From contig NZ_FORP01000002.1 of NCBI RefSeq assembly GCF_900114035.1, forward strand, positions 434,001 to 498,000: a stretch of 64,000 bases of DNA, written 5' to 3'. Below, in pieces: positions 10,783-59,006 of the stretch; position 1 is the stretch's first letter, and every line of letters starts with the position of its first letter. A model generated the notes under the pieces. That model had not been told where the DNA came from. It made no database searches and saw only the letters and a list, made by a program, of their open reading frames with translations. The position numbers and the translations under genes are program-made. The stretch comes from Amycolatopsis sacchari. Lineage in GTDB: Bacteria; Actinomycetota; Actinomycetes; Mycobacteriales; Pseudonocardiaceae.

Positions 10783-10816
10783 ACAGTAGGAGCCTGCGAC
10801 CTAGATTGTCAACAAT
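10783..10816 (-). promoter_or_regulatory. GntR-type operator O1 over promoter of aldolase operon
   Basis: ATTGTCAACAAT (10805-10816) is a perfect ATTGT-N2-ACAAT inverted repeat. Read on the minus strand it contains TTGACA (10812-10807), followed after 18 bp by TACTGT (10788-10783), a good -35/-10 pair. The same repeat recurs exactly at 46009 and 58995. Inferred target of the FCD-type GntR encoded at 47552-48214. Confidence 0.72.
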
Positions 10817-10820
10817 TTTG

Positions 10821-11513
10821 CTAACAAGCGGAGGCTGCCTTCTGCCACGCGGTGATGCGGGCGATCACCAGCAGGAACAACCCGCCCGACACCACCCGGA
10901 TGCCGAAAGCCACGGTGTCGGTGAGGGAGGCCGTGAACAGGTCGTGGGCATCGGCGGGCCGGAGGAACCCGACGGTGGCCCAGAGGTCGACGAGCGCGGA
11001 CAGCAGGTAGAGCGACCACCAGGCCGTGACCAGTCCGCTTCCCCGCACCCGGGCCAGGTTCAGCGTCTCCGGGGAGCCGGGCCTGCTCGTCTTCCAGACG
11101 TCGGAGACGATCGTGTGCGGGTACCAGAAGTTGACGACCGGGCAGATCCAGCCGCCGATCACCCAGCCGCGGCCCAGCCGGTGCTGGGCGAGCGACCGCG
11201 ACTCGGCGTTGCGGCGGGCCCGCCACAGCCACCCGACCACGACGACCCCGGCGCACGCCAGGATCGCGGCCGAAGCCCACCGCAACGTCCTGCTGAGCGA
11301 ATCGGCGGCCACCACGTCGGCGAGCGGGGCGGAACCGTCGAGGTAGCCGGTGACCACGTGGTACGCGTGCCAGTGCGTCCACGTCACCGCACCCCTCGCC
11401 ACCGCCGCCAGTACGACCGCGACCGCGGCGGCGACACCGAGCGCGGTCAACGGCCGCACGGGTTCGGACTCGGACGGGGAGGATGCGGCGAAGGGCGCCA
11501 GGGCATCGGTCAC
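10821..11513 (-). CDS. DUF4328 membrane protein
   Basis: A 230-residue integral membrane protein with about five hydrophobic segments (near residues 25-45, 80-100, 118-135, 165-185 and 200-222). The RRNAESRSL segment and the GWICPVVNFWYPHTIVSDVWKTS region are characteristic of DUF4328. Function unknown. The proposed GTG start at 11513 has no convincing ribosome-binding site, so the exact N terminus is uncertain. It follows the TIGR03086-like gene by 33 bp in the same direction. Confidence 0.8.
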   Translation of the reverse strand: MTDALAPFAASSPSESEPVRPLTALGVAAAVAVVLAAVARGAVTWTHWHAYHVVTGYLDGSAPLADVVAADSLSRTLRWASAAILACAGVVVVGWLWRARRNAESRSLAQHRLGRGWVIGGWICPVVNFWYPHTIVSDVWKTSRPGSPETLNLARVRGSGLVTAWWSLYLLSALVDLWATVGFLRPADAHDLFTASLTDTVAFGIRVVSGGLFLLVIARITAWQKAASAC

Positions 11514-11546
11514 GGGAGGACAGTCGTGATCACGCGCCCCGGCGTT

Positions 11547-12110
11547 TCACCCCCTCCGCCCCGTGAAGGCCAGCAGCCGTTCGCTGGCTCCGCCCGCCAC
11601 CCCCAGGGGCGGGCCGAACCGGCCGGGGCGGTCCGCCGGGGTGAGCAGGAGCGGCGCCAGTTCGAGCAACTCCTCCGCCAGGGGCTCCGGCAGCGGACGC
11701 CGCGCCCCGCACGCCTGCGCCACGTCCCACCCGTGCACCGCGATCTCGAACGCGCCGGCGCTGGTGAGGAGCTCCGGCGTCAGGACCGCCGCCCCGACGC
11801 CGACCGTCCCCGGCGCTTCCGCCGCCGTCCACGCGGCGAGCAGCCCCGTGGCGTGGCCACGCACCGTCGTGACCGGATCGCCCGCCGCCTCGGGCACGGT
11901 GAGCGGGACGTGCCCGAGGTCGGCGGCTTCCCGCAGCGCGAGCAGTGAATCGTCGAGGTGTGCGAGGAGGTCCCCCAGCGTCCAGTCCGCACAGGGGGTC
12001 GGGCGCGACAGCGGACCGGGCGGGACGAGGGCCAGGCTGCCGAGCGCGTAACCGATCGCGCGTTCGAGCAGCCCGAGCCCACCGAGCAGCGCCGCGCCCC
12101 CGTCCGTCAT
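11547..12110 (-). CDS. TIGR03086/DinB-like metal-binding protein
   Basis: A 187-residue protein of the mycothiol-dependent maleylpyruvate isomerase N-terminal/DinB-like four-helix fold. LSRPTPCADWTLGDLLAHL carries the typical first metal His, and AFEIAVHGWDVAQACG the second conserved His region. Its ATG overlaps the stop codon of the upstream ECF sigma gene (ATGA), so the two are translationally coupled. Members are often encoded beside SnoaL-tailed ECF factors; activity is unknown. Confidence 0.83.
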   Translation of the reverse strand: MTDGGAALLGGLGLLERAIGYALGSLALVPPGPLSRPTPCADWTLGDLLAHLDDSLLALREAADLGHVPLTVPEAAGDPVTTVRGHATGLLAAWTAAEAPGTVGVGAAVLTPELLTSAGAFEIAVHGWDVAQACGARRPLPEPLAEELLELAPLLLTPADRPGRFGPPLGVAGGASERLLAFTGRRG

Positions 12111-13096
12111 GCCGGCAGGACCTCGGGCAGCCCGAACTTCGCGAACAGGCCGGTGTCGAAGAAGCAGGTCACGTGCCGGACACCGGACTTCGACAGCGTC
12201 AGCACGGGCATGTTGAACGGCCGGTACACGTCGCCGTCCCGGACGTACAGGCCGAACCCCGGCTGGCCGTTCGACCGGATCGGCAGCAGCCGCATGTCGC
12301 CGGGGCCCTTCGCGGGGCACTTGAGGTCGATGAGCTTCGCGATGTTCTCCGGGCCCTGGTACCAGCCGACGAACGGCGGCATCTCCCAGATCGCGTCCTT
12401 CGTGAACAGCTCGACCATCGCCGAGATGTCCTTGCGCTCGAACACGTCCACGAACCGCTCCAGCAGCTCGCGCTGCTCCGCGTCACCCGGCGCGACGACG
12501 TCGTCCTCCCGCGGCGTCACCTCGTCGAGCTGGGCGCGGGCGCGCTGCAGGATGCTGTTGACCGCGGTGGTCGTGGTGTCGAGGACCTTCGCCACCTCGG
12601 CGGCGCGCCACTGCAGGACGTCCCGCAGGATCAGCACCGCGCGCTGCCGCGGCGGCAGGTGCTGGAGCGCGGCCATCAGCGCCAGCCGGATGCTCTCGCG
12701 GGAGGTCACGATCGCGGCGGGGTCGGCCTGGTCGGCGCCGACCATGGCGTCCGGCACGGGTTCGAGCCACGGCACCTCGTCCTGGGCGACCAGCTCGTCA
12801 CCCCCGTCCAGGCCGGGCCCGCCGAGCCCGGTCGGCAACGGGCGCTTGTCCCGGCTCTCCAGCGCGGTCAGGCACACGCGCGTCGCGATGCGGTAGAGCC
12901 ACGTGCGCAGCGAGGAACGCCCTTCGAACCGGTCGTAGGACTTCCACGCGCGCAGGTAGGTCTCCTGCACCAGGTCCTCCGCGTCGTGCACGGAACCGAG
13001 CATGCGGTAACAGTGCGCGAGCAGCTCGCGTCTGAACGGATCGGCCTGACGCAGGAAATCCTCGTCGGCCCGTCTTTCGGTCAGTGTCATGGTCAC
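12107..13096 (-). CDS. ECF sigma factor with C-terminal SnoaL-like domain
   Basis: A 329-residue group IV sigma-70 factor of the TIGR02960 (SigG-like) type. Region 2 contains DAEDLVQETYLRAWKSYDRF, region 4 the HLPPRQRAVLILRDVLQWRAAEVAKVL helix-turn-helix. From about residue 200 there is an extra 130-residue SnoaL/NTF2-like domain with the WEMPPFVGWYQG segment, thought in such factors to act as a built-in regulator. The GTG at 13096 lies 8 bp after AGGAGG, better spaced than the ATG at 13102. Divergent from DoxX; no classical anti-sigma gene is adjacent. Confidence 0.92.
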   Translation of the reverse strand: MTMTLTERRADEDFLRQADPFRRELLAHCYRMLGSVHDAEDLVQETYLRAWKSYDRFEGRSSLRTWLYRIATRVCLTALESRDKRPLPTGLGGPGLDGGDELVAQDEVPWLEPVPDAMVGADQADPAAIVTSRESIRLALMAALQHLPPRQRAVLILRDVLQWRAAEVAKVLDTTTTAVNSILQRARAQLDEVTPREDDVVAPGDAEQRELLERFVDVFERKDISAMVELFTKDAIWEMPPFVGWYQGPENIAKLIDLKCPAKGPGDMRLLPIRSNGQPGFGLYVRDGDVYRPFNMPVLTLSKSGVRHVTCFFDTGLFAKFGLPEVLPA

Positions 13097-13137
13097 CAGC
13101 ATCGCCTCCTGTCGCGTCACCTGTACAGACCCGGCAA

Positions 13138-13149
13138 AGTTCGCGAACT
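13138..13149. promoter_or_regulatory. palindrome AGTTCGCGAACT between ECF and DoxX genes
   Basis: A perfect 12-bp palindrome sits in the 133-bp divergent spacer between the SnoaL-tailed ECF gene and doxX-like gene. Position suggests an operator or promoter element shared by both; no binding protein can be named. Confidence 0.4.
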
Positions 13150-13229
13150 CATCGGTGCGGTGGCGATGACTTTCCGTGGCGGTCGTGGTCTCCCCTTCCG
13201 ACCGCACCCGAACGGAAGGAAGTACAGCC

Positions 13230-13637
13230 ATGACCACCCAGACCACCGTGCCCGCCCGCCGCACTTCCACCGTCGCCCTGTGGACCACCCAGGTCCTGCT
13301 CGGCGCCTTCCTGCTGATCGCGGCCGCGGGGCCGAAGCTGCTCGGCGAACGGTTCGCCGTGCAGATCTTCGACGAGATCGGCGCCGGGCAGTGGTTCCGC
13401 TACCTGGTCGGCGTGCTGGAGCTCGCCGGCGCGATCGGGCTGGTGGTCCCGGCGCTGACCGGGCTCGCCGCACTCGGCCTGTCGGCCCTGCTCGTCGGCG
13501 CCACCTGCACGCAGCTCTTCGTGCTCGGCGAACCCCTGTACGCGCTCACCCCGGCGGCGCTGGCGATCGTCGCGGGAGTGCTCGCGTACGCGCGCCGGGA
13601 GAGCACGAAGAGCCTCCTCGCGCGGCTGAGGCGATGA
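13230..13637 (+). CDS. DoxX-family membrane protein
   Basis: A 135-residue protein with four predicted membrane helices. TTQVLLGAFLLIAAAGPKL contains the DoxX-type first helix and loop, and the VGVLELAGAIGLVVPALTG segment is typical. DoxX relatives take part in redox or quinone-linked membrane functions, but a specific role cannot be given. The ATG at 13230 follows GGAAGGA. Its divergent placement next to the SnoaL-tailed ECF factor suggests it is part of that sigma factor's regulon. Confidence 0.85.
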   Translation: MTTQTTVPARRTSTVALWTTQVLLGAFLLIAAAGPKLLGERFAVQIFDEIGAGQWFRYLVGVLELAGAIGLVVPALTGLAALGLSALLVGATCTQLFVLGEPLYALTPAALAIVAGVLAYARRESTKSLLARLRR

Positions 13638-13639
13638 CG

Positions 13640-14353
13640 TCAGACCGCGAACCGCGCCACCGGGCTCGTCGTGGGTTGCGGCGAGCCCCCGGCCGGTTCG
13701 ACCGTCATCGCGATCTGCTGGACGCCCCGCAGCCCGGCGAACGCGAGCGCCGAGGTACCGCGAGGCCCCAGGACACCCAGCGACTTCGCGGTGCCGCCGA
13801 CGATCGCCCACGCCTGGTACGTCGTGTTCGCCGGCTGGTCCGGCATCCCGGACAGCACCAGCAGACCGCGGTCGAGCCGCTGCGAAAGCAGCACGCTGCC
13901 GCCTTCGGTCGAAACGGCCCGCAGATCCGGCGCGGACAACAGCTGCGTCACGGCGTTCTGCTGGGCCAGCTGACCGCGGGCCGCGGTGAGCTGGCCCTGC
14001 GTCCGCACCACGACCACGCCGAGCGCGACCGCCACGACGACGGCGACCGCGGCCGCCACCGAAACCAGCCGCAGCGCCAGTCCCCTCGCCCCCCGCGCCG
14101 GTTCCGTGCGTTCGGTGCCGGGGGGTTCCTGGCGCACGCCGGCGATCCTGGTCAGCACCTCGGCCTTCAGCCGTGGCGGTGGCGCCTCGCTGACGGCGAG
14201 CGCCAGCCTGGCGCCGGTGGCCCGCAGTTCGGCGACCTCCCGCGCGCACTCGGGGCACTGCGCGAGGTGGCGTTCGAACTGCCGCCGCTCGAACTCGTCG
14301 AGCGCGTCGATCGCGTAGGCACCGGTCAGCAGGTGCGCGTCCGGCGTCGTCAT
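13640..14353 (-). CDS. rskA: RskA-like anti-sigma-K factor
   Basis: A 237-residue membrane-spanning anti-sigma factor. The N-terminal zinc-binding anti-sigma motif HxxxCxxC is at H29, C33 and C36 (HLAQCPECA). One transmembrane helix lies near residues 92-115 and the C-terminal extracytoplasmic part is of the RskA type (YQAWAIVGG, PVARFAV end). Its ATG overlaps the stop of the sigma gene (ATGA), which fixes the start and shows coupling. It should hold SigK inactive until released by regulated proteolysis. Confidence 0.92.
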   Translation of the reverse strand: MTTPDAHLLTGAYAIDALDEFERRQFERHLAQCPECAREVAELRATGARLALAVSEAPPPRLKAEVLTRIAGVRQEPPGTERTEPARGARGLALRLVSVAAAVAVVVAVALGVVVVRTQGQLTAARGQLAQQNAVTQLLSAPDLRAVSTEGGSVLLSQRLDRGLLVLSGMPDQPANTTYQAWAIVGGTAKSLGVLGPRGTSALAFAGLRGVQQIAMTVEPAGGSPQPTTSPVARFAV

Positions 14354-15944: not shown

Positions 15945-15966
15945 GACGATCTGGACTTTACGCAGC

Positions 15967-28024: not shown

Positions 28025-28252
28025 ATGGCAACTCGCATTGATTTCGGACCCGGGGTCACCTGTTTCGCGTGCCTCGTGCCGCGGGAGCAGACACCGGAAA
28101 ACGAAGAATGGTGTTTCGACGTCGAGAACCGGCCGTTGTGCGGGCAGTGCGCCCGTGACGAATGCATTATCCACGAGCCGTGGGGCGGGAATTTCCCGCC
28201 CGAGGAATTCCTCCCGCGCCCGGGTGCGGAGCTCTCGTATTTCCTGCCCTGA
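28025..28252 (+). CDS. small CxxC/CxxC protein, putative zinc ribbon
   Basis: A 75-residue soluble protein not recognised as a named family. It carries two CxxC pairs (TCFACL near residue 13 and LCGQCARDEC near residue 39) consistent with a single zinc ribbon, and a conserved-looking aromatic end. The ATG at 28025 lacks a strong ribosome-binding site. It lies 68 bp upstream of paaX in the same direction. Codon positions are GC-rich, in favour of a real gene. Confidence 0.65.
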   Translation: MATRIDFGPGVTCFACLVPREQTPENEEWCFDVENRPLCGQCARDECIIHEPWGGNFPPEEFLPRPGAELSYFLP

Positions 28253-28320
28253 CGCACTATCCTTCCGCCGCCGGTATAACGTGGGGAAACCCGGTGCCGG
28301 CGACGGGAGGTGAGGAGCCC

Positions 28321-29178: not shown

Positions 29179-29189
29179 TCGCCCGCCGT

Positions 29190-29915: not shown

Positions 29916-29935
29916 CCTAACACGGTAGGCTGCTC

Positions 29936-42357: not shown

Positions 42358-43620
42358 ATGATGGGGCACACTCGTGTCGTGCCACACGAAAACCCGCACG
42401 GCGGACACGGCGCGGTGAAGCCGCTGGCGCACAAGGACTTCCGCTGGCTGCTGGCAGGCAGGACGAGTGGCGAACTGGGCAATGCGGTCGCGCCGGTGGC
42501 GCTCGCGTTCGCGGTGCTCGACCGCACGGGGTCCGCGGTGGACCTCGGGCTCGTCGTGGGGGCCCGGTCGGTGGCGAGCGTGCTGCTGGTGTTGTTCGGT
42601 GGCATGCTCGCCGACCGGCTGCCACGCTCGGTGATCCTCCAGGGCACCGAACTCGCCGCGACGCTCACCCAGGCGGGAATCGCCGCGAGTGTCCTTTTCG
42701 GATTCGCCTCCTTGCCGTTGCTGGTCGGGCTGAGTGCGGTCAACGGCGCGGTCGCCGCGGTTTCACTACCGGCGGCGTCGGCGCTGACCCCGCAGACGGT
42801 GCCGGAAACCGTGCTGGGACAGGCGAACGCGTACGTCCGGATCGGAGCGAACCTGGGCCGGTTCACGGGAGCGGCACTGGGCGGGGTGCTCGTCGCCGGC
42901 CTCGGCGCGGGTGGCGCGATCGCGGTGAACGCGGCTCTGTTCCTGTGTGCGGGCCTCTGCTACCGGGGAATCCGGGTCGGGCTGCGGCCGGCACCGGCGT
43001 CCCGGCCGCTGGCCGAACTCGCCGACGGCTGGCGGGAGTTCGCGTCGCGGACGTGGGTGTGGGCGGTCGTGGCGCAGTTCTGCGTCGTCAACGCGGTGAA
43101 CGCGGGTGCGGTGCAGGTGCTGGGCCCCGTCGTCGCGGACGGGACGATCGGCAGGGCCGCGTGGGGTTTCGTGCTGGCGGCCCAGACGGTCGGCGCGCTG
43201 GCGGGCGGGGTGCTCGCGGCGCGGTGGCAGCCGCGGCGCGCGCTGCTGGTCGGTGTGGCGGTCACGTTCGCGGACGCCCTGCCGGTGGTGCTGCTGGCGC
43301 AGGCGCCGCTCGTGCCGCCGCTGCTGGTGGCGGGGTTCGTCACGGGCGTCGCGGTGGAGCTGTTCACGGTGGCGTGGGACGTGTCGCTGCAGGAGAACAT
43401 CCCGCCGGACCGGCTCGCGCGGGTGTACGCCTACGACATCCTCGGCTCGCTCGTCGCGCTGCCGGTGGGCACCGTCGCCGCCGGGCCGCTCGCCGCGCAC
43501 TTCGGCACGCGGGCGACCCTGCTCGGCGCCGCCGTCCTCCTCACGGCGGCCACGGCGGCGGCGCTGCTGAGCCGGGACATCCGCACCTTGCGGCGGATCA
43601 GCCCGCGGCCATCCGGCTGA
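42358..43620 (+). CDS. MFS transporter (MFS_3/enterobactin exporter-like)
   Basis: A protein of up to 420 residues with 10-12 membrane helices. LAHKDFRWLLAGRTSGELGNAVAPVALAFAVLDRTGSAVDLG is the characteristic start of MFS_3 exporters, and the LADRLPRSVIL loop follows helix 2. Upstream of about residue 22 the sequence is weakly conserved, so a later start is possible. Its 3' end overlaps the convergent amidase gene by 23 bp. Confidence 0.87.
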   Translation: MMGHTRVVPHENPHGGHGAVKPLAHKDFRWLLAGRTSGELGNAVAPVALAFAVLDRTGSAVDLGLVVGARSVASVLLVLFGGMLADRLPRSVILQGTELAATLTQAGIAASVLFGFASLPLLVGLSAVNGAVAAVSLPAASALTPQTVPETVLGQANAYVRIGANLGRFTGAALGGVLVAGLGAGGAIAVNAALFLCAGLCYRGIRVGLRPAPASRPLAELADGWREFASRTWVWAVVAQFCVVNAVNAGAVQVLGPVVADGTIGRAAWGFVLAAQTVGALAGGVLAARWQPRRALLVGVAVTFADALPVVLLAQAPLVPPLLVAGFVTGVAVELFTVAWDVSLQENIPPDRLARVYAYDILGSLVALPVGTVAAGPLAAHFGTRATLLGAAVLLTAATAAALLSRDIRTLRRISPRPSG

Positions 43621-44992
43621 CGCGGATCGGGCGGATCTCCTCCACCAGCTTCGCCACCGCGAGGACCAGGTCGTCCGAGTGCCGCGGGCCCACGATCTGC
43701 AGCCCGACCGGCCGCCCGTCCTCCGTCACGCCCGCCGGGACGCTGATCGCCGGCTGCTGGGTCATGTTGAACGGGTACGTGAACGGCGTCCACTCCGGCC
43801 AGCTCGACAGGCCGCTGCCCGGCGGCACCTCGTACCCGGCCTCGAACGGCGGGATGCCGACCGTCGGCGTGATGAGCACGTCGTACCGCGTGTGGAACTC
43901 GCCCATGAGGATGCCGAGCGCGGCGCGCTCCGCGTTGGCGGCCAGGTAGTCCGCCGCCGAGTACGTCTTCCCCTGCTCCCACACGCGCCGCAGGCCCGGG
44001 TCGATCCTCTCCTCGGACCCCGGCGGGAAGGTGTTCAGCCACTGCGCGGCACCCGTGGACCACAGCACGTCGAACGCGTCCTTCGGGTCGCTGAAGCCCG
44101 GGTCGGTCTCCTCGATGCGCAACCCCGCGTCTTCCAGCCCGGCCACGGCGGAGCGCACCAGGCTCGCCACTTCCGGATGGACCTCCGCGAAACCCAGCGT
44201 CGGCGAGAACGCCGCGATCAAGCCCCGCACGTCACGCCGGACGGCCTCGCGGTACGCGCTGATCGGCGGCGGCAGCGCGTTGGGGTCGCGGTGGTCGGGC
44301 AAGGCCAGCACGTCCAGCATCAACGCGACGTCGTCCACCGAACGCGCCATCGGTCCGGCGTGCGAGAGCGCGCCGAACGGGCTCGCCGGGTACAGCGGCA
44401 CGCGGCCGTACGTCGGCTTCAGCCCGACAATGCCGCAGAACGCGGCGGGAATCCGGATGGACCCGCCGCCGTCGGTGCCGACGGACAGCTCCCCCATCCC
44501 GGCCGCGACCGCCGCCGCGCTGCCGCCGCTCGACCCGCCGGCGGTCAGCGCCGTGTCCCACGGGTTGCGCGTGATGCCGCAGAGCGCGCTGTCGGTGACC
44601 CCCTTCCACGCCAGTTCCGGCGTGGTCGTCTTGCCGAGCAGCACCAGCCCGTTCTCCCGCAACCGCGCGGCGACCGGGCTGTCCACGTCCCACGGCTGGT
44701 TCGGGTCGACGCACGTCGAGCCGCGCAACGTCGGCCAGCCCGCGGTGAGGAACATGTCCTTGATCGACGTGGGCACCCCGTCGAGCCAGCCGATGGGGTT
44801 GCCCTCCCGCCAGCGGGTTTCGGACGCCTTCGCACCCTCCAGCGCGACCTCGCGGTCGACGAGGCAGTAGGCGTTGACCTCGCCGTCGCGTTCCTCGATG
44901 GCGTTCAGCGCGGACTCGGTGGCCTCCACGGGCGACAGCTCGCCGGTGGAGTACGCGGCGACCAGCTCGCTGGCCGTCAACAGGGTGCTCAT
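43598..44992 (-). CDS. amidase (amidase signature family)
   Basis: A 464-residue amidase hydrolysing a carboxylic amide to acid plus ammonia. The Ser-cisSer-Lys triad is visible: K78 (GVPTSIKDMF), cis-Ser in GGSSGGS around residue 154, and nucleophile S178 (GTDGGGSIRIP). The ATG at 44992 is preceded by AAGGAG with 4-bp spacing and lies 10 bp after the hydroxyacid dehydrogenase stop, so both are one operon under operator O2. The substrate is unknown; a maleamate-, acrylamide- or aryl-amide-type compound would fit its neighbours. Confidence 0.92.
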   Translation of the reverse strand: MSTLLTASELVAAYSTGELSPVEATESALNAIEERDGEVNAYCLVDREVALEGAKASETRWREGNPIGWLDGVPTSIKDMFLTAGWPTLRGSTCVDPNQPWDVDSPVAARLRENGLVLLGKTTTPELAWKGVTDSALCGITRNPWDTALTAGGSSGGSAAAVAAGMGELSVGTDGGGSIRIPAAFCGIVGLKPTYGRVPLYPASPFGALSHAGPMARSVDDVALMLDVLALPDHRDPNALPPPISAYREAVRRDVRGLIAAFSPTLGFAEVHPEVASLVRSAVAGLEDAGLRIEETDPGFSDPKDAFDVLWSTGAAQWLNTFPPGSEERIDPGLRRVWEQGKTYSAADYLAANAERAALGILMGEFHTRYDVLITPTVGIPPFEAGYEVPPGSGLSSWPEWTPFTYPFNMTQQPAISVPAGVTEDGRPVGLQIVGPRHSDDLVLAVAKLVEEIRPIRVSRMAAG

Positions 44993-45002
44993 CATGCTCC
45001 TT

Positions 45003-45980
45003 TTAATGCCCCGACGGCACGTAGCCCAACTGTTTGTCGACGACATTACGAAGCGGGCGGCCATCGCGCCACCGTGCGAAGTTGTCGGCGAACACCTCGA
45101 CGAGCGTGTTCCGCCAGCCGACGAAGTCCCCCGACATGTGCGGGGAGATCACCACGTTGTCCAACGTCCACAGTGGATGATCGACCGGCAACGGCTCGGT
45201 GTCGAACACGTCGAGCGCGGCCCCGGCGATCTCTCCCGCACGCAAGGCCGTGACCAGCTCGTCCGTCACCACCAGCTCACCCCGGCCGACGTTGACGAAC
45301 CGGGCGGACGGCTTCATCGCGGCGAAGGCCGCGGCGTCGAACATGCCCTTGGTCTCGTCGGTCAGCGGCGCCACGGCGATCACGTAGTCGAACCCGGCCG
45401 CCACCCGGACGAGGTCCGCCGAGGCGTGCACGGTGCCGAAGTCCGGATCTTCCCCGCGGGCGCGGCGGCCCATGCCGGAGACGTCGAGCCCGGCGGCACG
45501 CAGCAGCCGCGCGATGGCGCGGCCGATCGGCCCGGTGCCGACGACGAGCGCGCGTCGCCCGGCGACCCGCTCGCTCTCGCGGTGCTGCCAGCGACGCTGC
45601 CGTTGCAGCTCGAGCGAGCGCGGCAGGTCCTTGGCGAACGCGATGACCACGCCGAGCACGTACTCGGCGATGGAGTCGTCGAACACGCCCCGCGAATTGG
45701 TCAGGACCACGTCGCTTTCGCGCAGTTCGGGGAACATCACCGGGTCCACGCCGGCGCTCGCGATGTGCACCCAGCGGATGCGGTCGGCGGCGTGCCAGGC
45801 GCCCGGCACGGCGGTCGAGAGGAAGTCGTAGACGAACAGCGCGTCGGCGCCCCGAAGCGCGTCCGGGAGCCCTTTTTCGTCCGTGTAACGGATTTCCGCC
45901 GCCGCCTCGACCGCGTCCATGTCCGGGGGGCGCCGATCACCGCAGAGCACCGCCAGCACCGGGATTTCCGTGCCGATCAT
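45003..45980 (-). CDS. D-isomer-specific 2-hydroxyacid dehydrogenase
   Basis: A 325-residue NAD(P)-dependent dehydrogenase interconverting 2-hydroxy and 2-oxo acids. VVGTGPIGRAIARLLRAAG is the Rossmann GxGxxG motif near residue 147; FVNVGRGELVVTDEL carries the catalytic Arg, ALDVFDTEPLP the Glu, and ISPHMSG the His. The ATG at 45980 falls exactly 7 nt after a TACCGT -10 box, so the mRNA may be leaderless. First gene of an operon with the amidase, divergent from the maleate-isomerase-like gene. Confidence 0.92.
   Translation of the reverse strand: MIGTEIPVLAVLCGDRRPPDMDAVEAAAEIRYTDEKGLPDALRGADALFVYDFLSTAVPGAWHAADRIRWVHIASAGVDPVMFPELRESDVVLTNSRGVFDDSIAEYVLGVVIAFAKDLPRSLELQRQRRWQHRESERVAGRRALVVGTGPIGRAIARLLRAAGLDVSGMGRRARGEDPDFGTVHASADLVRVAAGFDYVIAVAPLTDETKGMFDAAAFAAMKPSARFVNVGRGELVVTDELVTALRAGEIAGAALDVFDTEPLPVDHPLWTLDNVVISPHMSGDFVGWRNTLVEVFADNFARWRDGRPLRNVVDKQLGYVPSGH
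45167..45177. repeat. TCCACAGTGGA dyad, copy 3
   Basis: Exact inverted repeat inside the hydroxyacid dehydrogenase gene, same family as copies at 23255, 31260 and 53203. Confidence 0.6.
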
Positions 45981-45982
45981 CG

Positions 45983-46020
45983 TTGACACGGTAGGAGCCG
46001 GTCGTATGATTGTCAACAAT
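45983..46020. promoter_or_regulatory. GntR-type operator O2 over two divergent promoters
   Basis: ATTGTCAACAAT lies at 46009-46020. Plus strand promoter: TTGACA 45983-45988, 16 bp, TATGAT 46005-46010, whose last two bases enter the operator. Minus strand promoter: TTGACA 46016-46011 inside the operator, 17 bp, TACCGT 45993-45988. A bound repressor would block both directions at once. This is the clearest regulatory site in the window. Confidence 0.82.
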
Positions 46021-46074
46021 CCGAGGAGCCACCCCGGAGGCCTTCGTCCAGAGCGTCACCTTCGGAGCCGAGCC

Positions 46075-46815
46075 TTGGATTTGGACTTCCCTGCCTTCGA
46101 CGGCCCACTGGCACAGCGGGGGATCGGCGTCATCGCGCCGTTCGACCTCGCGCTGGAACGCGAGCTGTGGCGCTGGGTGCCGATGGAGGTGTCACTGCAC
46201 CTCGCGCGCACCCCGTACGAACCCGTGCCGGTGAGCATGGAGATGGCGCAGCTCGTCAGCAACAGCGCACACCTCGCGGCGGCCACCCGCGACGTCCTGC
46301 ACGTCGAGCCCGAGGTCGTCGCATACCTGTGCACGTCGGGCAGCTTCGTCAACGGCATCGACTACGAACGCTCGCTGTGCAAGGCGATCTGCGACGCCGG
46401 CGCGCCGGACGCGGTGACCACGTCGGGCGCGCTCGCCGAGGTGCTGGACCAGCTGGACGTGCACCGGGTCGCCGTGATCACGCCCTACGACGCCGACCTC
46501 ACCGGGAAGCTGCACGACTTCCTCGCCGAGATGAACGTCGAGACCGTGGCGAGCGAGCACCTCGGCCTGGGCGGCGGGATCTGGAAGGTCAGCTACCGCA
46601 CGATCGCGGAGCGCATCTTCGCCGCGGACCACGCCGACGCGGAGGCGATCTTCGTGAGCTGCACGAACCTGCCCACGTACGACCTGATCGAGCCGCTGGA
46701 GGTCGCGCTGGGCAAGCCGGTGCTGACCGCCAACCAGCTGACGATGTGGGCGTGCCTGAAGCGGATGCAGCTGCCGATCGTCGGGCCCGGGAAGTGGTTG
46801 AAGGAAGTATCGTAG
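46075..46815 (+). CDS. maleate isomerase/arylmalonate decarboxylase-family protein, two-Cys form
   Basis: A 246-residue Asp/Glu racemase-fold protein. Both catalytic cysteines expected of maleate cis-trans isomerase are present: C86 (YLCTSGSFVNG) and C196 (FVSCTNLPTYD). It therefore could isomerise maleate or a substituted maleate to the fumarate form, or racemise a related acid. No ATG fits the conserved start; TTG at 46075, 7 bp after GGAG, is the best candidate. Driven by the O2 promoter. Confidence 0.83.
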   Translation: MDLDFPAFDGPLAQRGIGVIAPFDLALERELWRWVPMEVSLHLARTPYEPVPVSMEMAQLVSNSAHLAAATRDVLHVEPEVVAYLCTSGSFVNGIDYERSLCKAICDAGAPDAVTTSGALAEVLDQLDVHRVAVITPYDADLTGKLHDFLAEMNVETVASEHLGLGGGIWKVSYRTIAERIFAADHADAEAIFVSCTNLPTYDLIEPLEVALGKPVLTANQLTMWACLKRMQLPIVGPGKWLKEVS

Positions 46816-46816
46816 G

Positions 46817-46828
46817 ATTGTCGACAAC
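46817..46828. promoter_or_regulatory. GntR-type operator O3 (one mismatch)
   Basis: ATTGTCGACAAC directly follows the stop codon of the first maleate-isomerase-like gene and precedes the second by 19 bp. It contains the perfect core TTGTCGACAA and differs from ATTGT-N2-ACAAT only in the last base. It may give the second paralogue and the GntR gene separate control. Confidence 0.6.
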
Positions 46829-46847
46829 CTTCCTGGAGGTGCCGCCC

Positions 46848-47561
46848 ATGCCGACAGTCGGCTTCATCTACCCGGACCACGCCGCCGAGGACGACTACCC
46901 GTTCGCCGAGCGGCTGCTGGGCCCGGGGTTCTCGCTGCCGGTCGAGCACATCTACGGCACCGACCTGCACGCCGTGCCCGAGCTGCTCGACCTCGGCAGC
47001 GAGCAGCGCCTCGCCGAGGGGGCGGCGCTGCTGGCCGAGCACGAGCCGGACGCCGTGGTGTGGGCGTGCACGAGCGGCAGCTTCGTCTACCGCTGGGACG
47101 GGGCGCACGAGCAGGTGGACAAGCTCGCCGCCGCCGCGGGTAAACCGGCGTCGAGCACGTCTTTCGCGTTCGTGCGGGCGGCGGAGAAGCTGGGCCTCAA
47201 GCGCGTCGCGGTCGCGGCGAGCTACCCCGAGGACGTGGCGAAGCTGTTCGTGGAGTTCCTCGGCCAGGGCGGTGTGGAGATCGTGTCGATGACCAGCGAA
47301 GGCATCGACACCGCGGCCGAGGTCGGCAGGCTCTCCCCCGAGGCGGTCGTCGACCTCGCGGTGAGCCACGACCACCCCGACGCCGACGCGGTGCTGATCC
47401 CGGACACGGCTATGCGCACACTCGGGGTGCTCACTACGATCGAAGCCCGGCTCGGCAAGCCCGTGCTCACGGCCAACCAGGTGACCGTCTGGGAGGGCCT
47501 GCGCCTCACGGGTGAGATCCCCGGGTCGACTGAACTGGGGGAGCTCTTCCGATGCCATTAG
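46848..47561 (+). CDS. maleate isomerase/arylmalonate decarboxylase-like paralogue, one-Cys form
   Basis: A 237-residue paralogue of the preceding protein. The first cysteine is kept (C74 in WACTSGSFVY), but the second site reads LIPDTAMRT, with Asp (about D186) in place of Cys. A two-cysteine isomerase or racemase mechanism is therefore excluded, and characterised arylmalonate decarboxylase keeps the opposite cysteine. The reaction is thus unclear. ATG at 46848 follows TGGAGG. It overlaps the GntR gene start by 10 bp. Confidence 0.85.
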   Translation: MPTVGFIYPDHAAEDDYPFAERLLGPGFSLPVEHIYGTDLHAVPELLDLGSEQRLAEGAALLAEHEPDAVVWACTSGSFVYRWDGAHEQVDKLAAAAGKPASSTSFAFVRAAEKLGLKRVAVAASYPEDVAKLFVEFLGQGGVEIVSMTSEGIDTAAEVGRLSPEAVVDLAVSHDHPDADAVLIPDTAMRTLGVLTTIEARLGKPVLTANQVTVWEGLRLTGEIPGSTELGELFRCH

Positions 47562-48214
47562 CCGAAATCGAACCGGTCAGCCGCGAGTCCACCGCTGCGA
47601 TCATCGCGCGCCAGCTGCGTGAGGCGATCATGAACGGGTCGCTGCCGCCGGGTACGCAGCTCGCGGAAACCGAACTCGCCGCGCAGTTCCAGGTGTCGCG
47701 CGGGCCGCTGCGCGAGGCGATGCAGCGGCTGGTGTCCGAGGGACTGTTGCGCAGCGAACGGCACCGGGGGCTGTTCGTGATCGACCTCGAACCGGAGGAC
47801 GTGCACGACATCTACTCGGCGCGGATGGCCATCGAGCGGCAGGCGCTGATCCGCGTCGCGCAGGGAGCCGACCGCGAGGCGGTGGCGGACGCGCTCGACG
47901 AGACCGTGCGGGAGATGGCCGCCGCGACGGCCGCCAAGGACTGGGCGGCGGTGTCCGAAGCGGACACCCGGTTCCACGAGGTGCTCGTCGCGGGCTCGGG
48001 GAGCAAGCGCTTGCAGCGGATGTCGCGCACGCTGCTGGTCGAGACCCGCATGTGCCTGTCCGCGTTGCGCCTCAAGTACAACGACGACGAGGAGCGCGTG
48101 ACCGAACACGAGCAGATCGCGGAAGCCGTCCGCCGCGGTGACGCGAAAAAGGCGGCGGCGTTGCTGGAGGACCACATGGACGACGCCGTGCGCCGGCTGA
48201 CCGCGGGCACGTAA
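47552..48214 (+). CDS. FadR/FCD-type GntR transcriptional regulator
   Basis: A 220-residue regulator. Residues about 10-75 are the GntR winged helix (IIARQLREAIMNGSLPPGTQL, ELAAQFQVSRGPLREAMQRLVSEGLL). From residue 80 the FCD helical effector domain follows, with the metal-ligand pattern D..H...H (EADTRFHEVLV, TEHEQIAEAV, LEDHMDDAV). FCD regulators commonly bind TTGT-N2-ACAA-like dyads, matching O1-O4, and sense hydroxy or dicarboxylic acids. Overlap with the upstream gene shows co-transcription and probable autoregulation. Confidence 0.93.
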   Translation: MPLAEIEPVSRESTAAIIARQLREAIMNGSLPPGTQLAETELAAQFQVSRGPLREAMQRLVSEGLLRSERHRGLFVIDLEPEDVHDIYSARMAIERQALIRVAQGADREAVADALDETVREMAAATAAKDWAAVSEADTRFHEVLVAGSGSKRLQRMSRTLLVETRMCLSALRLKYNDDEERVTEHEQIAEAVRRGDAKKAAALLEDHMDDAVRRLTAGT

Positions 48215-55100: not shown

Positions 55101-56387
55101 GCCCGGCGGGGTCTCGCGCTTCAGCCCCAGCACGGCACGCAGTTCGTCCCCGCACCACACGCCCAGCACGGCGGCCGCGCCACCCCGCAGCAGCTCCCCC
55201 GCCTCAGGCGAATCCGGGTCCAGCGGGGCCAGCCGCCAGCCGTCGGCGCTGCGCTCCTCCTTGGGGCGCTTGGGGTCGAACAGCTGCCAGATTCGGTCGA
55301 CGACCCCTTCGCTGTCAGAAAGCGTTTTCAGCTCACTCGGCGCCATCCGGCCCGTGTCGAGCGCGGCCTCGTCCACCACGACGGTGTCGATGACGTCGAG
55401 CCGCCGCAGCACGGAGCGGTCCATCACGAGCGTGCCGTGCCGGGCGAGCACCCGGCCGAGGTGCGCGCCGAACGCCGACCGCCCCGCCTCCGCGGCCTTC
55501 GGCAGCGACGCGAGCCCGATGCCGAGCGCGCGGCGCGGGCCGAACGGCAGCATCACGCCCGCGGCCAGCGCACCGGCCGCCAGCGCCTTGCGTTCGTAGT
55601 CCTCGACGGGACCGTCGGGCAGCGGGCGCGGACGTTCGACCACGACCGGATCGGCGGCCGCGTCCTCCGGTCCGGTGATCAGCTTGCTTTCGGCGGCACA
55701 CCAGGCCTTCGAGTAGGCCTTCGCCTCCCGCCACTGCTCGACGCGCTGCGCGGTGTCGAGCAGCGTGCCCTCGCCCCCGGCGGCGAGACCGTGTGCGAGG
55801 GCGCCGGCGATCGAAGTCGCCGAGTCGGCACGTTCCCCGCTTCCCGCGCGTTTCGCCGCCAGCTCCCGGAGCTTCGGGTGCAGGTCGAAGACGCTCGGCA
55901 GCGCGGCGACCTCGGCGGGCAGCGGCGCCCACGGCGCGACCCGGGTGATCGCCGACAGCCCGAGCCCCACGGCGTTCGCGGCGAGGGTGGGCAGCAGGCG
56001 CGTGCCGCGGATGCCGTCGGCGGGGTGGTGCAGTTCGTCCTCGGCGGCCTGTTCCTCCTCGGTTTCCGGTGCGGCCTCGGCACGCTCGACGGCCCGCACG
56101 AGCTCCTCGGTCGCGGGCGCGGGATCGCCGACGGCGATGATCACGCGGGAGGAGGGCGCGTTGACCCGCGCCCAGTGCACCCCCTCGTACTTCTCCAGCT
56201 CACGCTCGATGCGGCGGGCGACGCGTTCGCCGCCCGCCCCGTGCACGCCGTGCGCCTCGATGTGCAGCCGCCCCGGGCACGACCACACCTGCCGCCGCTG
56301 CCGTCCACCCAGCACGTCGCGGACCACGCCGGCGACCGCGCCCATCGTGGACAACGGTCCCGGCACCCGTACACCCAGCAGCCGCAT
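52113..56387 (-). CDS. ctpI: large P-type ATPase of the CtpI type
   Basis: A 1424-residue P-type ATPase, far longer than ordinary transporters and matching mycobacterial CtpI in design. The C-terminal 780 residues are a full pump: TGES (actuator), phosphorylation site DKTGT at D913, TGDGAND near residue 1175 and the last membrane helices. The N-terminal 620 residues hold an HMA-like start and a degenerate extra P-ATPase half without DKTGT. ATG at 56387 follows GGGAGG. The transported ion is not certain (calcium or magnesium have been discussed for the family). Confidence 0.9.
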   Translation of the reverse strand: MRLLGVRVPGPLSTMGAVAGVVRDVLGGRQRRQVWSCPGRLHIEAHGVHGAGGERVARRIERELEKYEGVHWARVNAPSSRVIIAVGDPAPATEELVRAVERAEAAPETEEEQAAEDELHHPADGIRGTRLLPTLAANAVGLGLSAITRVAPWAPLPAEVAALPSVFDLHPKLRELAAKRAGSGERADSATSIAGALAHGLAAGGEGTLLDTAQRVEQWREAKAYSKAWCAAESKLITGPEDAAADPVVVERPRPLPDGPVEDYERKALAAGALAAGVMLPFGPRRALGIGLASLPKAAEAGRSAFGAHLGRVLARHGTLVMDRSVLRRLDVIDTVVVDEAALDTGRMAPSELKTLSDSEGVVDRIWQLFDPKRPKEERSADGWRLAPLDPDSPEAGELLRGGAAAVLGVWCGDELRAVLGLKRETPPGIATLVAAARRANLPIISANGDEPSFDADRTVPGGNRLVASVRELQGEGRVVLLVSGDRQALGASDCGIGVHGEGEAPPWGAHLLVGDDVAVAGLVIEAVCVARDIDRDGIRLAAGASGVGAVSALQRGRTSPASRSLRAVNVGAGIALANAHRRAGRLRPPVLDAAVAPWHLMPADVVLERLKTDHKGLSTTEARKRIAPDGVAERTSFANAFLAELSNPLTPVLLGGAALSASVGSPSDALLVAGITALSAVVGSVQQVRTERQLADLLRRSATTATVLRDGEERTLSADELVRGDIVLLDSGDVVPADCRLLTADALEMDESSLTGESLPIAKDPSPVVAADVAERTSMLYEGTTVAAGRATAVVVATGDGTEAGRSMALARENAPTTGVEHRLSELTRKSMPAALGSAVAVAGAGLVRGIPLRESMSAAVNLAVASVPEGLPFLVNAAQLAAARRLAEHNALVRNPRSIEALGRVDVLCFDKTGTLTEGKLTVNEIDDGRSRRRVDDLTPELRKVLAVAVRATPHADDPAELPHATDRAVLASAEHAEPGEWEPLDSVPFEPSRGYHAVAGRADGQVVLSVKGAPEAVLPRCSLDKAARRKMSSRMRKLAQAGQRVLAVAERPLETSTVDEDAVRDLEFRGFVGIADPVRGSAAEAAAQLRAAGVQIVMITGDHPDTGEAIANEVTEDDADLHVVTGAQLEELDEEQLAETLRTVDVVARCSPMQKVRIIKAYQRIGRTVAMTGDGANDAPAIRLADVGIALGGHGTPAAKAAADLVVTDDRLETIIAALIEGRAMWASVREALAILLGGNLGEIAFSVLGAALTGRSPLTARQLLLVNLLTDLAPALAIALRRPTGGTELLSEGPESSLGKALQRDIGVRAGVTTLGATTAWTLARFTGRGRRASTVALASLVGTQLGQTLVTGGVDVSTLAASLGSAAALALVIQTPGVSRFFGCTPLGPVGWTIALGSATSATLLGTLFDRRAEASEEE
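53203..53213. repeat. TCCACTGTGGA dyad, copy 4
   Basis: Exact inverted repeat inside the P-ATPase gene, same family as copies at 23255, 31260 and 45167; a one-mismatch version is at 56852-56862 in the next gene. Confidence 0.6.
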
Positions 56388-56434
56388 CGGCACCTCCCTC
56401 TCCCGTGGAAGAAGGTGCCCAGTCCGGCCCGGGT

Positions 56435-57496
56435 TTATGCCTCGACCGAGTCGGCGATCGCGTCGCCCAGCTCCGCCGTGGTGGCCTTGCCGCCGAGATC
56501 GGGCGTCGCGACCTCGCCCATCGCGAGCACCTGCTCGACCGCCGCGTACACCGCGCGCGCCGCCTCGGCCTCGCCGAGGTGCTCCAGCATCATCGTGCCC
56601 GCGAGGATCTGCGCGACGGGGTTGGCGATGCCCTTGCCCGCGATGTCGGGCGCGCTGCCGTGCACGGCCTCGAACATCGACGGGTGCTCGCGCTCCGGGT
56701 TGATGTTGCCCGACGGCGCCATGCCCAGCCCGCCGGTGACCGCGGCCGCGAGGTCGCTCAGGATGTCGCCGAACAGGTTCGAGGCCACCACCACGTCGAT
56801 CCGCTCCGGCTGCTGCACCATGCGGGCGGCCAGCGCGTCGATGTGGCACTGTTCACTGTGGACGGTCGGGAAGTCGGCGGCGACCTCGGCGAAGATCTCG
56901 TCCCAGAACGGCATCGTGTGGATGATCCCGTTGGACTTGGTGGCCGAGACGACGCGCCCGGTGCGGGTCTGCGCCAGCTCGAACGCGTAGCGGATGATCC
57001 GCTCCACGCCCACGCGCGTGAACACCGACTCCTGCAGCGCGAACTCGCCGGGCAGCCCGCGGTTCTGGCGGCCGCCCAGCTCGGAGTACTCGCCCTCGGA
57101 GTTCTCCCGGACGATCACCATCTCCAGCTCGTCGGCCGTGCGGTCCTTCAGCACCGACGTGGTGCCCGGCAGCAACCGCACCGGACGCAGGTTCACGTAC
57201 TGCGAGAACGCGCGCCGCACCGGGATGAGCAGGCCCCACAGCGAAACGTGGTCCGGCACGCCGGGAAAACCCACGGCACCGAGCAGGATCTGGTCGAACC
57301 CGGACAGCTGCTCGATCCCGTCCTCCGGCATCATCCGGCCGGTCTCGGCGTAACGCTCGCAGCTCCAGTCGAACTCGGTCCACTCCAGTGTGAACCCGAA
57401 CCGCTTCGCCGCGCGGTCGAGCACCTTGCGGGCCTCGGCCTGCACGTCCACGCCGATGCCGTCACCGGGGATGCTCGCGATGCGGTAGGAGCTCAC
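56435..57496 (-). CDS. tartrate/D-malate-type dehydrogenase (decarboxylating)
   Basis: A 353-residue NAD-dependent beta-decarboxylating dehydrogenase of the tartrate dehydrogenase/DmlA branch of the isocitrate/isopropylmalate family. IPGDGIGVDVQAEA is the N-terminal loop, IVRENSEGEYSELGGR the branch-specific substrate loop, and ASNLFGDILSDLAAAVTGGLGMAPSGNINP the Asp/cofactor region. It would oxidise tartrate, D-malate or a 3-alkylmalate to an oxo acid plus CO2. The GTG start overlaps the aldehyde dehydrogenase stop by 4 bp. Under operator O4. Confidence 0.9.
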   Translation of the reverse strand: MSSYRIASIPGDGIGVDVQAEARKVLDRAAKRFGFTLEWTEFDWSCERYAETGRMMPEDGIEQLSGFDQILLGAVGFPGVPDHVSLWGLLIPVRRAFSQYVNLRPVRLLPGTTSVLKDRTADELEMVIVRENSEGEYSELGGRQNRGLPGEFALQESVFTRVGVERIIRYAFELAQTRTGRVVSATKSNGIIHTMPFWDEIFAEVAADFPTVHSEQCHIDALAARMVQQPERIDVVVASNLFGDILSDLAAAVTGGLGMAPSGNINPEREHPSMFEAVHGSAPDIAGKGIANPVAQILAGTMMLEHLGEAEAARAVYAAVEQVLAMGEVATPDLGGKATTAELGDAIADSVEA

Positions 57497-58947
57497 AGAG
57501 CGACCGCCACGTACTTGATCTCCAGGAACTCGTCGATGCCGACGGCGCCGCCCTCGCGGCCGAGCCCCGACTGCTTGACGCCGCCGAACGGCGCCGCCGG
57601 GTTGGACACGATGCCCTGGTTGAGCCCGATCATCCCGGCCTCCAGGTTTTCCGAGACCCGCAGCGCGCGCTTGAGGTCGTTGGTGAACACGTAGCTCACC
57701 AGACCGTACTCGGTGTCGTTGGCGGCGGCGACCGCTTCGTCCTCGGTGTCGAACACCGTGATCGGCGCCACCGGGCCGAAGATCTCCTCGGTGGCCATGC
57801 GCGCGTCGCGGGGCACGCCGGTGAGCACGGTGGCCTGGTAGAAGTTGCCGGGCCCGTCGACGGTGGCGCCGCCGGTGAGCACCCGCGCGCCCCGGTCGGT
57901 CGCGTCCCGCACCAGCTCGCTGACCTTGCGCACGGCGTCGGAGTCGATCAGCGGGCCGACGACGACGCCGGGCTCGGTGCCGCGCCCCATCGGCAGCGCG
58001 GACATGCGCTCGGTGAGGCGGCGGGCGAACTCGTCGGCGACCCCGCGCTGCACGTAGAAGCGGTTCGCGGCGGTGCAGGCCTCGCCGATGTTGCGCATCT
58101 TCGCCTGCATCGCGCCGTCCACCGCCGCGTCGAGATCGGCGTCGTCGAACACCAGGAACGGCGCGTTGCCACCCAGCTCCATCGACGTGCGCAGCACCTT
58201 GTCGGCGCACTGCTCCAGCAGCTTCCGGCCCACCGCGGTCGAACCGGTGAAGGACAGCTTGCGCGCGCGGCCGTCGCGGATCAGCGGTTCCATCACGCCG
58301 CCGGGGTCGGTGGTCGTGACGACGTTGAGCACACCCGCGGGCAGCCCGGCCTCGGTGAGGATCGCCGCGAGCGCGAGCATCGACAGCGGGGTCTGCTCGG
58401 CCGGCTTGATCACCATCGTGCAGCCCGCCGCGATCGCCGGGCCGATCTTGCGCCCGCCCATCGCCATCGGGAAGTTCCACGGCGTGATCAGCAGCGTCGG
58501 GCCGACCGGCTGCTTGGTGACGAGGAAGCGGCCGGCGCCGTTGGGCGCGACCTGGTAGCCGCCGTCGATGCGCACGGCCTCCTCGGAGAACCAGCGGAAG
58601 AACTCGGCGGCGTAAGCGATTTCGCCCTTCGCCTCGGCCAGCGGCTTGCCCATCTCGAGCGTCATGAGCAGGCCGAGCTCGTCGGTGCGGGCGAGCAGCA
58701 GTTCGTACGCGCGGCGCAGGATCTCGCTGCGCTCGCGCGGGGCGGTGCGGGCCCAGTCGGCCTGCGCGGCGACCGCCGCGTCGAGCGCGGCCAGCCCGTC
58801 CTGGGGCGTCGCGTCGGCGACCTCGCACAGCACCTCGCCGGTGGCCGGGTCCTCCACGGCGAACGTGCGGCCGCCGGTCGCGGGCACCCACTTCCCGCCG
58901 ACGAACAGCTCCTTGTGCACGCCCTCGACCACGCTGGTCTCGCTCAC
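57493..58947 (-). CDS. aldehyde dehydrogenase (succinate-semialdehyde dehydrogenase-like)
   Basis: A 484-residue NAD(P)-dependent ALDH. Catalytic Cys C291 (GEACTAANRF) and general base E257 (MELGGN) are present, with TPWNFPMAM and FTGSTAVGRK of the cofactor site; overall closest in pattern to GabD/SSADH. First gene of the operon with the tartrate-type dehydrogenase, divergent from the aminotransferase, the usual arrangement when aminotransferase product is an aldehyde acid. Its ATG is 47 bp from operator O4. Confidence 0.92.
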   Translation of the reverse strand: MSETSVVEGVHKELFVGGKWVPATGGRTFAVEDPATGEVLCEVADATPQDGLAALDAAVAAQADWARTAPRERSEILRRAYELLLARTDELGLLMTLEMGKPLAEAKGEIAYAAEFFRWFSEEAVRIDGGYQVAPNGAGRFLVTKQPVGPTLLITPWNFPMAMGGRKIGPAIAAGCTMVIKPAEQTPLSMLALAAILTEAGLPAGVLNVVTTTDPGGVMEPLIRDGRARKLSFTGSTAVGRKLLEQCADKVLRTSMELGGNAPFLVFDDADLDAAVDGAMQAKMRNIGEACTAANRFYVQRGVADEFARRLTERMSALPMGRGTEPGVVVGPLIDSDAVRKVSELVRDATDRGARVLTGGATVDGPGNFYQATVLTGVPRDARMATEEIFGPVAPITVFDTEDEAVAAANDTEYGLVSYVFTNDLKRALRVSENLEAGMIGLNQGIVSNPAAPFGGVKQSGLGREGGAVGIDEFLEIKYVAVAL

Positions 58948-58964
58948 ATCCGCCTCCGTGTGGA

Positions 58965-59006
58965 TTGCACCAGTTCACCGGCCATGCTATGCATATTGTC
59001 AACAAT
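58965..59006. promoter_or_regulatory. GntR-type operator O4 between aldehyde dehydrogenase and aminotransferase
   Basis: ATTGTCAACAAT at 58995-59006, identical to O1 and O2. The plus strand has TTGCAC (58965-58970), 17 bp, TATGCA (58988-58993), so the operator covers the expected start site of the aminotransferase transcript. On the minus strand the operator again contains TTGACA, though the -10 for the aldehyde dehydrogenase is weak. Confidence 0.77.

Follow-up and report, generated by a model that had tools for sequence, protein, structure and literature searches.

In this work, we analyzed a stretch of 64,000 nucleotides from the actinomycete Amycolatopsis sacchari (hereafter the window; bases 434001-498000 of contig C58, in a genome of 7.59 Mb distributed in 72 contigs), which has a G+C content of 71% and harbors several catabolic genes associated with a 12-base dyad, ATTGTCAACAAT. 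Exact copies of this dyad occur at 10805-10816, 46009-46020 and 58995-59006, as reported in the initial annotation of the window; a further copy at 46817-46828 (ATTGTCGACAAC), described there as carrying one mismatch, does so when compared to the relaxed form ATTGTNNACAAT, whereas it displays two mismatches to the exact 12-mer. That annotation assigned all four sites to one regulon, controlled by a GntR-type repressor and devoted to an undescribed catabolic pathway. Our results indicate that the motif is most likely an operator common to at least two regulons, and not the mark of one pathway: regulon 1 looks like a conserved pathway and regulon 2 looks related to lignin-type aromatic acids, each under a different regulator.

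Operator 1 (46009..46020, plus strand, exact ATTGTCAACAAT) is located between two divergent units. On the minus strand are the genes for a D-2-hydroxyacid dehydrogenase (2HADH; 45003..45980, with a presumed ATG start at 45980; PF02826 and PF00389 on the frame 45003-46019) and an amidase (43598..45064, given as the bounds of the open reading frame, start unrefined; PF01425, and NF004815 with 766.6 bits for a cut-off of 506); on the plus strand is EutA1, a protein similar to maleate isomerase and arylmalonate decarboxylase (AMDase) (46075..46815, presumed TTG start; PF17645 on the frame 45919-46815). Operator 2 (46817..46828, plus strand, the ATTGTCGACAAC copy) extends between the EutA1 stop and the start of the AMDase-like EutA2 (46848..47561, plus strand; PF17645 on the frame 46167-47561), which is followed by the gene of an FCD-type GntR regulator (47552..48214, plus strand; PF00392 and PF07729), which probably acts as the repressor at 46009, 46817 and 58995. 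Operator 3 (58995..59006, plus strand, exact) lies between a minus-strand unit, comprising a succinate-semialdehyde-dehydrogenase-like aldehyde dehydrogenase (SSADH; 57493..58947; PF00171) and a tartrate/D-malate-type beta-decarboxylating dehydrogenase (56435..57493; PF00180, E 3.7e-93), and a plus-strand unit with a class-III aminotransferase resembling gamma-aminobutyrate (GABA) transaminase (59033..60286; PF00202; closest solved chain 1sf2, E 2e-94) and a DUF3830 protein (60296..60796; PF12903, E 1.4e-64; PDB 3kop, uncharacterized, E 6e-71). The gene list of the initial annotation, including the tartrate-type dehydrogenase, was correct.

The site at 10805..10816 (minus strand, exact), the candidate operator of the aromatic-acid regulon, is found upstream of a minus-strand operon encoding a CHA aldolase (10052..10747; NF006731 with 335 bits, cut-off 179; TIGR02798 with 300.8 bits, just under 304.5), a 4-oxalomesaconate tautomerase of the GalD/LigU type (9021..10055; NF033377 with 499 bits, cut-off 440) and a type I (vicinal-oxygen-chelate) extradiol dioxygenase (8059..9012; nearest solved chain 9wgj, 390 bits) that scores as catechol 2,3-dioxygenase (TIGR03211 with 334.6 bits, cut-off 320.2). 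Outside the window, exact copies of ATTGTNNACAAT occur at C36:328800, directly upstream of a second FCD-GntR gene (C36:328837-329475); at C40:311780, upstream of an amidohydrolase operon holding a 4-oxalomesaconate hydratase (L017:8768-9694; closest solved chain 2gwg, E 1.9e-161; no NCBIfam equivalog matched); and at C48:37177, between a third FCD-GntR gene and a GCV_T-family gene for a LigM/DesA-type demethylase. The window, C36 and C48 regulators all score over the cut-offs for PF00392 and PF07729, i.e., the FCD subfamily, and the window regulator shares only ~35% identity with its nearest paralogues in this genome.

The dyad is rare genome-wide. With up to two mismatches to ATTGTCAACAAT, the window contains 8 matches over both strands, corresponding to 4 places (mean of 100 shuffles 0.19, none at 8); with up to one mismatch to ATTGTNNACAAT, it contains 4 places (shuffle mean 0.10, none at 4). 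Throughout the genome, ATTGTNNACAAT is found exactly in 6 places, 3 of them in the window and all with a CA/TG centre, versus 0 for the reversed control, and with up to one mismatch in 33 places, versus 4. A genus scan revealed sites in 19/19 genomes and, among the matches listed, four genomes (G006, G007, G008 and G009) displayed a pair of sites ~820 bases apart and a third one 8.5-9.8 kb off. Separately, 10 of the 18 exact sites of another genome of the genus fall within 213 kb (G005:C1:1347191-1559904), which suggests an expanded regulon island. Two weaker dyads in tandem, AATGTCAACAAA and AATGTTGACAAT, were also observed at C55:159508 (L020:9897-9920), flanked by a CoA transferase gene on one side and an amidohydrolase gene on the other, with a related FCD-GntR (C55:152312) 7 kb off and a LigB gene at C55:167106.

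Regarding placement, a plus-strand promoter TTGACA-N16-TATGAT runs into operator 1, which overlaps the end of TATGAT; both boxes and their spacing are kept in 16/16 aligned rows, and the operator columns are invariant (12/12, identity 1.0) versus mean flank identities of 0.80 and 0.64. At 58995, the plus strand reads TTGCAC-N17-TATGCA and the operator starts one base past the -10 box in the window; this box is variable across 15 aligned rows (the inverted L062 omitted; L056 ends short), in which operator column identity reaches 0.95 versus 0.65 and 0.53 in the flanks. On the minus strand, TTGACA lies inside the operators at 46009 (for 2HADH) and 10805, and no clear -35 box was found at 46817 on reading the sequence. 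The repressor-type placement originally proposed was supported at 46009, 58995 and 10805, where the sites overlap or abut promoter boxes, and the layout at 46009 would allow a repressor to block both divergent promoters. The genome-wide scan and the conservation analysis suggested in the initial annotation agreed with its expectation of operator behavior, given that sites are rare (6 exact places versus 0), promoter-placed and recurrent upstream of orthologues in related genomes; the dyad looks like a genuine conserved repressor operator.

For the conservation of regulon 1, 80 loci were retrieved, and the 16 with a GntR of at least 53% identity were analyzed; the 64 loci left out of the counts are nearly all from Streptomyces, with GntR identities of 32-37%. 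Operator 1 is exact in 15/15 orthologous loci with EutA1 (L066 has no EutA1), operator 2 is present with up to one mismatch in 15/16 (missing in L055), and operator 3, at the same tolerance, in 15/15 of those reaching the aminotransferase (L056 ends short), including L062, in which the aminotransferase unit is inverted yet the site is retained. The assignment of 46009, 46817 and 58995 to the FCD-GntR of the same block was upheld by these counts. In the same 16 loci, with contig ends taken as misses, GntR and EutA2 were found in 16, the amidase, 2HADH, EutA1, SSADH and aminotransferase in 15 each, DUF3830 in 13 and the tartrate-type dehydrogenase in 12; the closest named relative found was Amycolatopsis bartoniae, and the regulon proteins of L053 reach 80-97% (best segment). 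In a wider set of 150 genomes of the family, in which the presence of each regulator was called at E <= 1e-40, the window-type GntR had one match each in 93/150. The site at EutA2 was found in 30/30 examined loci of this regulator (exactly in 26 and with a single mismatch in 4), and 17 of these loci belong to genomes without the C36-type GntR.

The site at 10805 follows a different regulator. Some match to the aldolase was found in 133/150 family genomes and 30 loci were examined: an exact upstream site is present in 11/13 loci with an adjoining tautomerase (own locus counted) versus 0/17 without it (Fisher 1.4e-6), two of the latter having a one-mismatch site. In L161, L162 and L166, an FCD-type GntR gene separates the aldolase from the exact site, and in L168 and the L167 cluster the GntR gene is flanked by two sites, the exact one adjoining the aldolase; in L163, L169 and L170 the intervening gene encodes a PIG-L-like protein of the GalB kind, recognized by eye. 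The GntRs of L161, L162, L166 and L168 have their best match in this genome (G000) at C36:329056, with 60-78% identity. Twelve genomes carry the site at an aldolase-tautomerase operon, counting a second copy in G009 that was noticed through its site. The C36-type GntR (39/150 overall) is present in 12/12 of them versus 27/138 others (p 2e-8), and the window-type GntR in 5/12 versus 88/138 (p 0.21). Furthermore, in one genome without the window-type GntR (G132), a single cluster (L194) contains a transporter, a lactonase-like gene, a site, a C36-type GntR, a second site, the aldolase, the tautomerase, a DUF1932 protein and the hydratase; a dioxygenase of the 10805 type was not found in this cluster. 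Therefore, pieces that are scattered in the genome studied here make one set elsewhere.

The hydratase and demethylase would extend this second set. Exact ATTGTNNACAAT is present in 16/30 hydratase loci, namely 6/6 of the nearest (L291-L296, own counted), 8/9 tautomerase-hydratase-aldolase clusters (L297-L304, L318), L312 and L315. The C48 demethylase is closest to LigM (5x1i, E 3.4e-137), and its site is exact at its own gene and at two 97% orthologues, with 0/21 among other homologues. As judged from these family assignments, regulon 2 matches the lower gallate route, plus an O-demethylase and an aromatic-acid-type transporter. Directly past the C48 GntR, a second type I extradiol dioxygenase was observed (L018:10672-11637; TIGR03211 with 306 bits, cut-off 320; 69% to the window enzyme).

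Considered as a whole, these findings are best explained by paralogous FCD-GntR repressors that control separate regulons through one operator, a reading to which we give a probability of roughly 0.84. In this mechanism, for which binding, repression, inducers and enzyme substrates are all predicted, several paralogous FCD-GntR repressors of an Amycolatopsis-type actinomycete would recognize ATTGTYRACAAT as their operator. The GntR at 47552-48214 would repress the amidase-2HADH, EutA1 and EutA2-GntR units via 46009 and 46817, its own gene being thus autoregulated, as well as the tartrate dehydrogenase-SSADH and aminotransferase-DUF3830 units via 58995; the regulator would leave its operators once the FCD domain binds a small substrate of the amide or amino-acid type, or a metabolite of that substrate. 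The second FCD-GntR (C36:328837-329475), whose own gene is preceded by this operator, would read 10805 and also cover the 4-oxalomesaconate hydratase, a lactonase-like protein and an aromatic-acid transporter on C40, and a third, related FCD-GntR, beside the LigM/DesA-type O-demethylase on C48, would use the same operator. Together, the scattered pieces would constitute a syringate/3-O-methylgallate/gallate-type route leading to pyruvate and oxaloacetate.

Several observations weigh against this explanation. No exact site was found within 14/30 hydratase loci, nor upstream of the tautomerase-linked aldolases of L172 and L173, and among 30 loci of the C36-type GntR, 23 have an upstream site (up to one mismatch), 2 have a site downstream only and the other 5 are devoid of sites within the locus; since the retrieved loci extend just 1.5 kb past the match or gene, sites farther out would escape. 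The demethylase scores under both NCBIfam equivalog cut-offs (NF047633, 582 of 800; NF047885, 525 of 580) and the syringate step is therefore a lead only, and, given that three type II LigB genes are present elsewhere in the genome, enzymes of either type may open a given ring. As for the statistics, the Fisher p values overstate independence because the genomes share kinship, and the 138 comparison genomes are not clean negatives, given that related site-bearing clusters (L297-L304) occur in some of the C36-positive ones. Finally, either regulator may occupy every site in vivo, given that the operator cores are identical; the flanks may not discriminate.

This last point leads to the alternative that best withstands the evidence, in which the regulons overlap and both FCD-GntRs bind all six exact sites, in a cross-talking or hierarchical manner that couples two pathways. 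The identical cores in both sets would agree with such an arrangement, as would the coexistence of both regulators in 5/12 site-bearing genomes, including this one; however, each regulon is found without the other regulator, the recognition-helix regions differ as read from the sequences, and so do the operator positions relative to the promoter elements, and we regard the overlap as rather unlikely. Considerably less credible is the original proposal of a single regulon, in which the four sites would all answer to the GntR at 47552 and every gene would serve one undescribed pathway. It draws on the identical 12-mer at three sites and the near copy at the fourth, and on the fact that the window holds just one FCD-GntR, with no adjoining FCD gene at 10805 in this genome. 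Nevertheless, 7/12 genomes with the site at the aldolase-tautomerase operon have no window-type GntR and 12/12 have the C36-type; conversely, G008 combines a window-type GntR with three sites whose spacing matches, and has neither a C36-type GntR nor a close aldolase. In addition, L194 joins the second regulon with its own regulator, and the aldolase and tautomerase correspond to enzymes of the known gallate/4-oxalomesaconate route (NCBIfam equivalogs). The single regulon was rejected on the basis of regulator/site co-occurrence and L194, as 10805 tracks the C36 regulator; regarding the undescribed pathway, this claim is not supported for 10805 and may hold for the three-site block only.

Two other explanations fare worse. 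That a regulator of another family reads the sites, with GntR as a bystander, is very improbable, in view of the joint maintenance of site and GntR in 30/30 examined loci, the fact that, of the three exact sites beyond the window, those on C36 and C48 directly precede FCD-GntR genes, and the Arthrobacter plasmids L286 and L289, where exact sites occur near the aminotransferase and a GntR (43-49% identical). Lastly, the notion that the dyads are promoter or coincidence features, i.e., TTGACA boxes in an A+T-rich island, is suggested by the TTGACA inside the dyad and the location of the sites within promoters, yet it was discarded with near certainty on account of the genome-wide rarity (control, 0 places), the 12 invariant columns versus lower flank identity across 16 rows, and the position of the plus-strand dyad at or past the -10 box at 46009 and 58995, where a -35 box is unneeded. 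Separate regulons under paralogous FCD-GntRs are thus retained as the preferred reading.

With respect to the function of regulon 1, the amidase, the GABA-transaminase-like aminotransferase, the SSADH-like enzyme and the tartrate/D-malate-type dehydrogenase would be compatible with the breakdown of a C4 compound, either an amino compound or an amide, with a keto acid as end product. The SSADH reaches 581 bits for TIGR01780, under the cut-off of 646, and its substrate is therefore not fixed by the family; the tartrate-type dehydrogenase shares 50% with an Arthrobacter Hiyo8 gene annotated as 'probable tartrate dehydrogenase/decarboxylase'. The aminotransferase is common to plasmids of Hiyo8, RHA1, Shinella and StoSoilB13 (57-68%); those of Hiyo8, RHA1 and StoSoilB13 also carry SSADH (pieces of 56-71%, and one short piece of 40%) and exact sites, such that the aminotransferase, SSADH, a GntR and exact ATTGTYRACAAT occur in L286 (Arthrobacter Hiyo8), L287 (R. 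jostii RHA1) and L289 (Arthrobacter StoSoilB13), and those of Hiyo8 and StoSoilB13 additionally hold the tartrate-type dehydrogenase, a GntR and amino-acid-type transporters. These neighbors suggest an amino-acid-like substrate but were insufficient to name it. DUF3830 is present in 43/396 actinobacterial genomes; its search against plasmids gave zero matches, and no paper on it was found in the literature searched.

Maleate isomerase has two catalytic cysteines. EutA1 retains both superfamily cysteines when aligned with maleate isomerase (2xec, 3ixm), and EutA2 retains the first and has the second replaced (alignment to 3ixl), which would be compatible with a paired enzyme. We tentatively propose, with somewhat less than even confidence in the proposal as a whole, that the three-operator block encodes a catabolic pathway of Amycolatopsis and its actinomycete relatives that has not been described before. 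In its possible form, an amide would be hydrolyzed, a GABA-like C4 amino acid would be transaminated and oxidized to a hydroxy-dicarboxylate, and the beta-decarboxylating dehydrogenase would convert the latter into a keto acid. The two EutA-like proteins would pair up as the subunits of a racemase or isomerase, and DUF3830 would contribute a novel function, either in catalysis or in binding. Within the same region, a large P-type cation ATPase (52113-56434) separates the two halves of the local regulon, with homologous sequence in the matching gap of several relatives, and a 219-amino-acid open frame without Pfam match lies past the GntR (48245-48904; 52% identical in A. bartoniae).

FCD-GntR repressor regulons are of a known kind, and several described systems resemble parts of those presented here. 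In the nearest published case found, VanR2 of Pseudomonas sp. NGC7 is reported to be a GntR-type repressor of a syringate catabolic operon, its effective operator lies directly downstream of the -10 box, and it may also repress its own gene (PMC12314914). This operator placement resembles 46009 and 58995, whereas VanR2 reads GGGATCCC and the operator here is ATTGTYRACAAT; the gallate-part operon of NGC7 is under the LysR activator GalR, in contrast to the aldolase-tautomerase operon here with an FCD-GntR, and demethylation involves VanAB, in place of which a LigM/DesA-type protein would probably act here (PMC12314914). Likeness to the lower gallate pathway is seen in the tautomerase, which is over its cut-off, in the aldolase, over one cut-off and just under another, and in the hydratase, near solved 4-oxalomesaconate hydratases; the genes of this route and of the protocatechuate-4,5 lower pathway are known as LigU/GalD, LigJ/GalB and LigK/GalC. 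Unlike that pathway, the genes here are spread over contigs C58, C40, C36 and C48, the regulator is an FCD-GntR, and the operon includes a type I extradiol dioxygenase and not a LigAB-type enzyme, a contrast based on the division of extradiol dioxygenases into types I and II.

Ectoine utilization (eut/doe) resembles regulon 1 in the combination of an EutA-like protein, a class-III aminotransferase and an SSADH-type dehydrogenase, and a Sinorhizobium plasmid carries an EutA1-like gene (40%) near ehuABCD, an amidohydrolase, an aldehyde dehydrogenase and a transaminase labeled ectB. However, the EutA-like proteins here score 97.4 and 111.5 bits, far under the TIGR02990 cut-off of 318, and the regulator is an FCD-GntR, not the MocR-type regulator of ectoine utilization; the family scans made identified neither an ectoine hydrolase nor a deacetylase in the regulon 1 block. 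Both EutA1 and EutA2 match PF17645 of the maleate isomerase/AMDase superfamily, but EutA2 differs in its missing second cysteine, and an identity as ectoine EutA or AMDase was rejected for the two proteins, as neither reaches the corresponding equivalog cut-offs. In literature searches with the motif strings, none of the matches listed was a paper on a GntR regulator, searches with the three-site gene set gave no match, and no published account of the operator or gene set was found in a literature that mostly excluded subscription papers. Elsewhere in the window, we observed an ECF-type sigma factor that carries a SnoaL domain and has an anti-sigma protein of the RskA type close by (12107-14731), and a PaaX-type regulator in the vicinity of a protein that contains a substrate-binding domain of the styrene-monooxygenase kind (28162-31258).

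As this case illustrates, a short DNA word common to different regulators can fuse separate pathways into a false single regulon, and the lesson for genome reading is to split such regulons by regulator/site co-occurrence. Regulon 2 provides a testable actinomycete regulon in which an FCD-GntR would govern an aromatic route of the syringate/gallate type and the operon includes a type I ring-cleavage enzyme, and regulon 1 a testable conserved block of about nine genes, DUF3830 among them.

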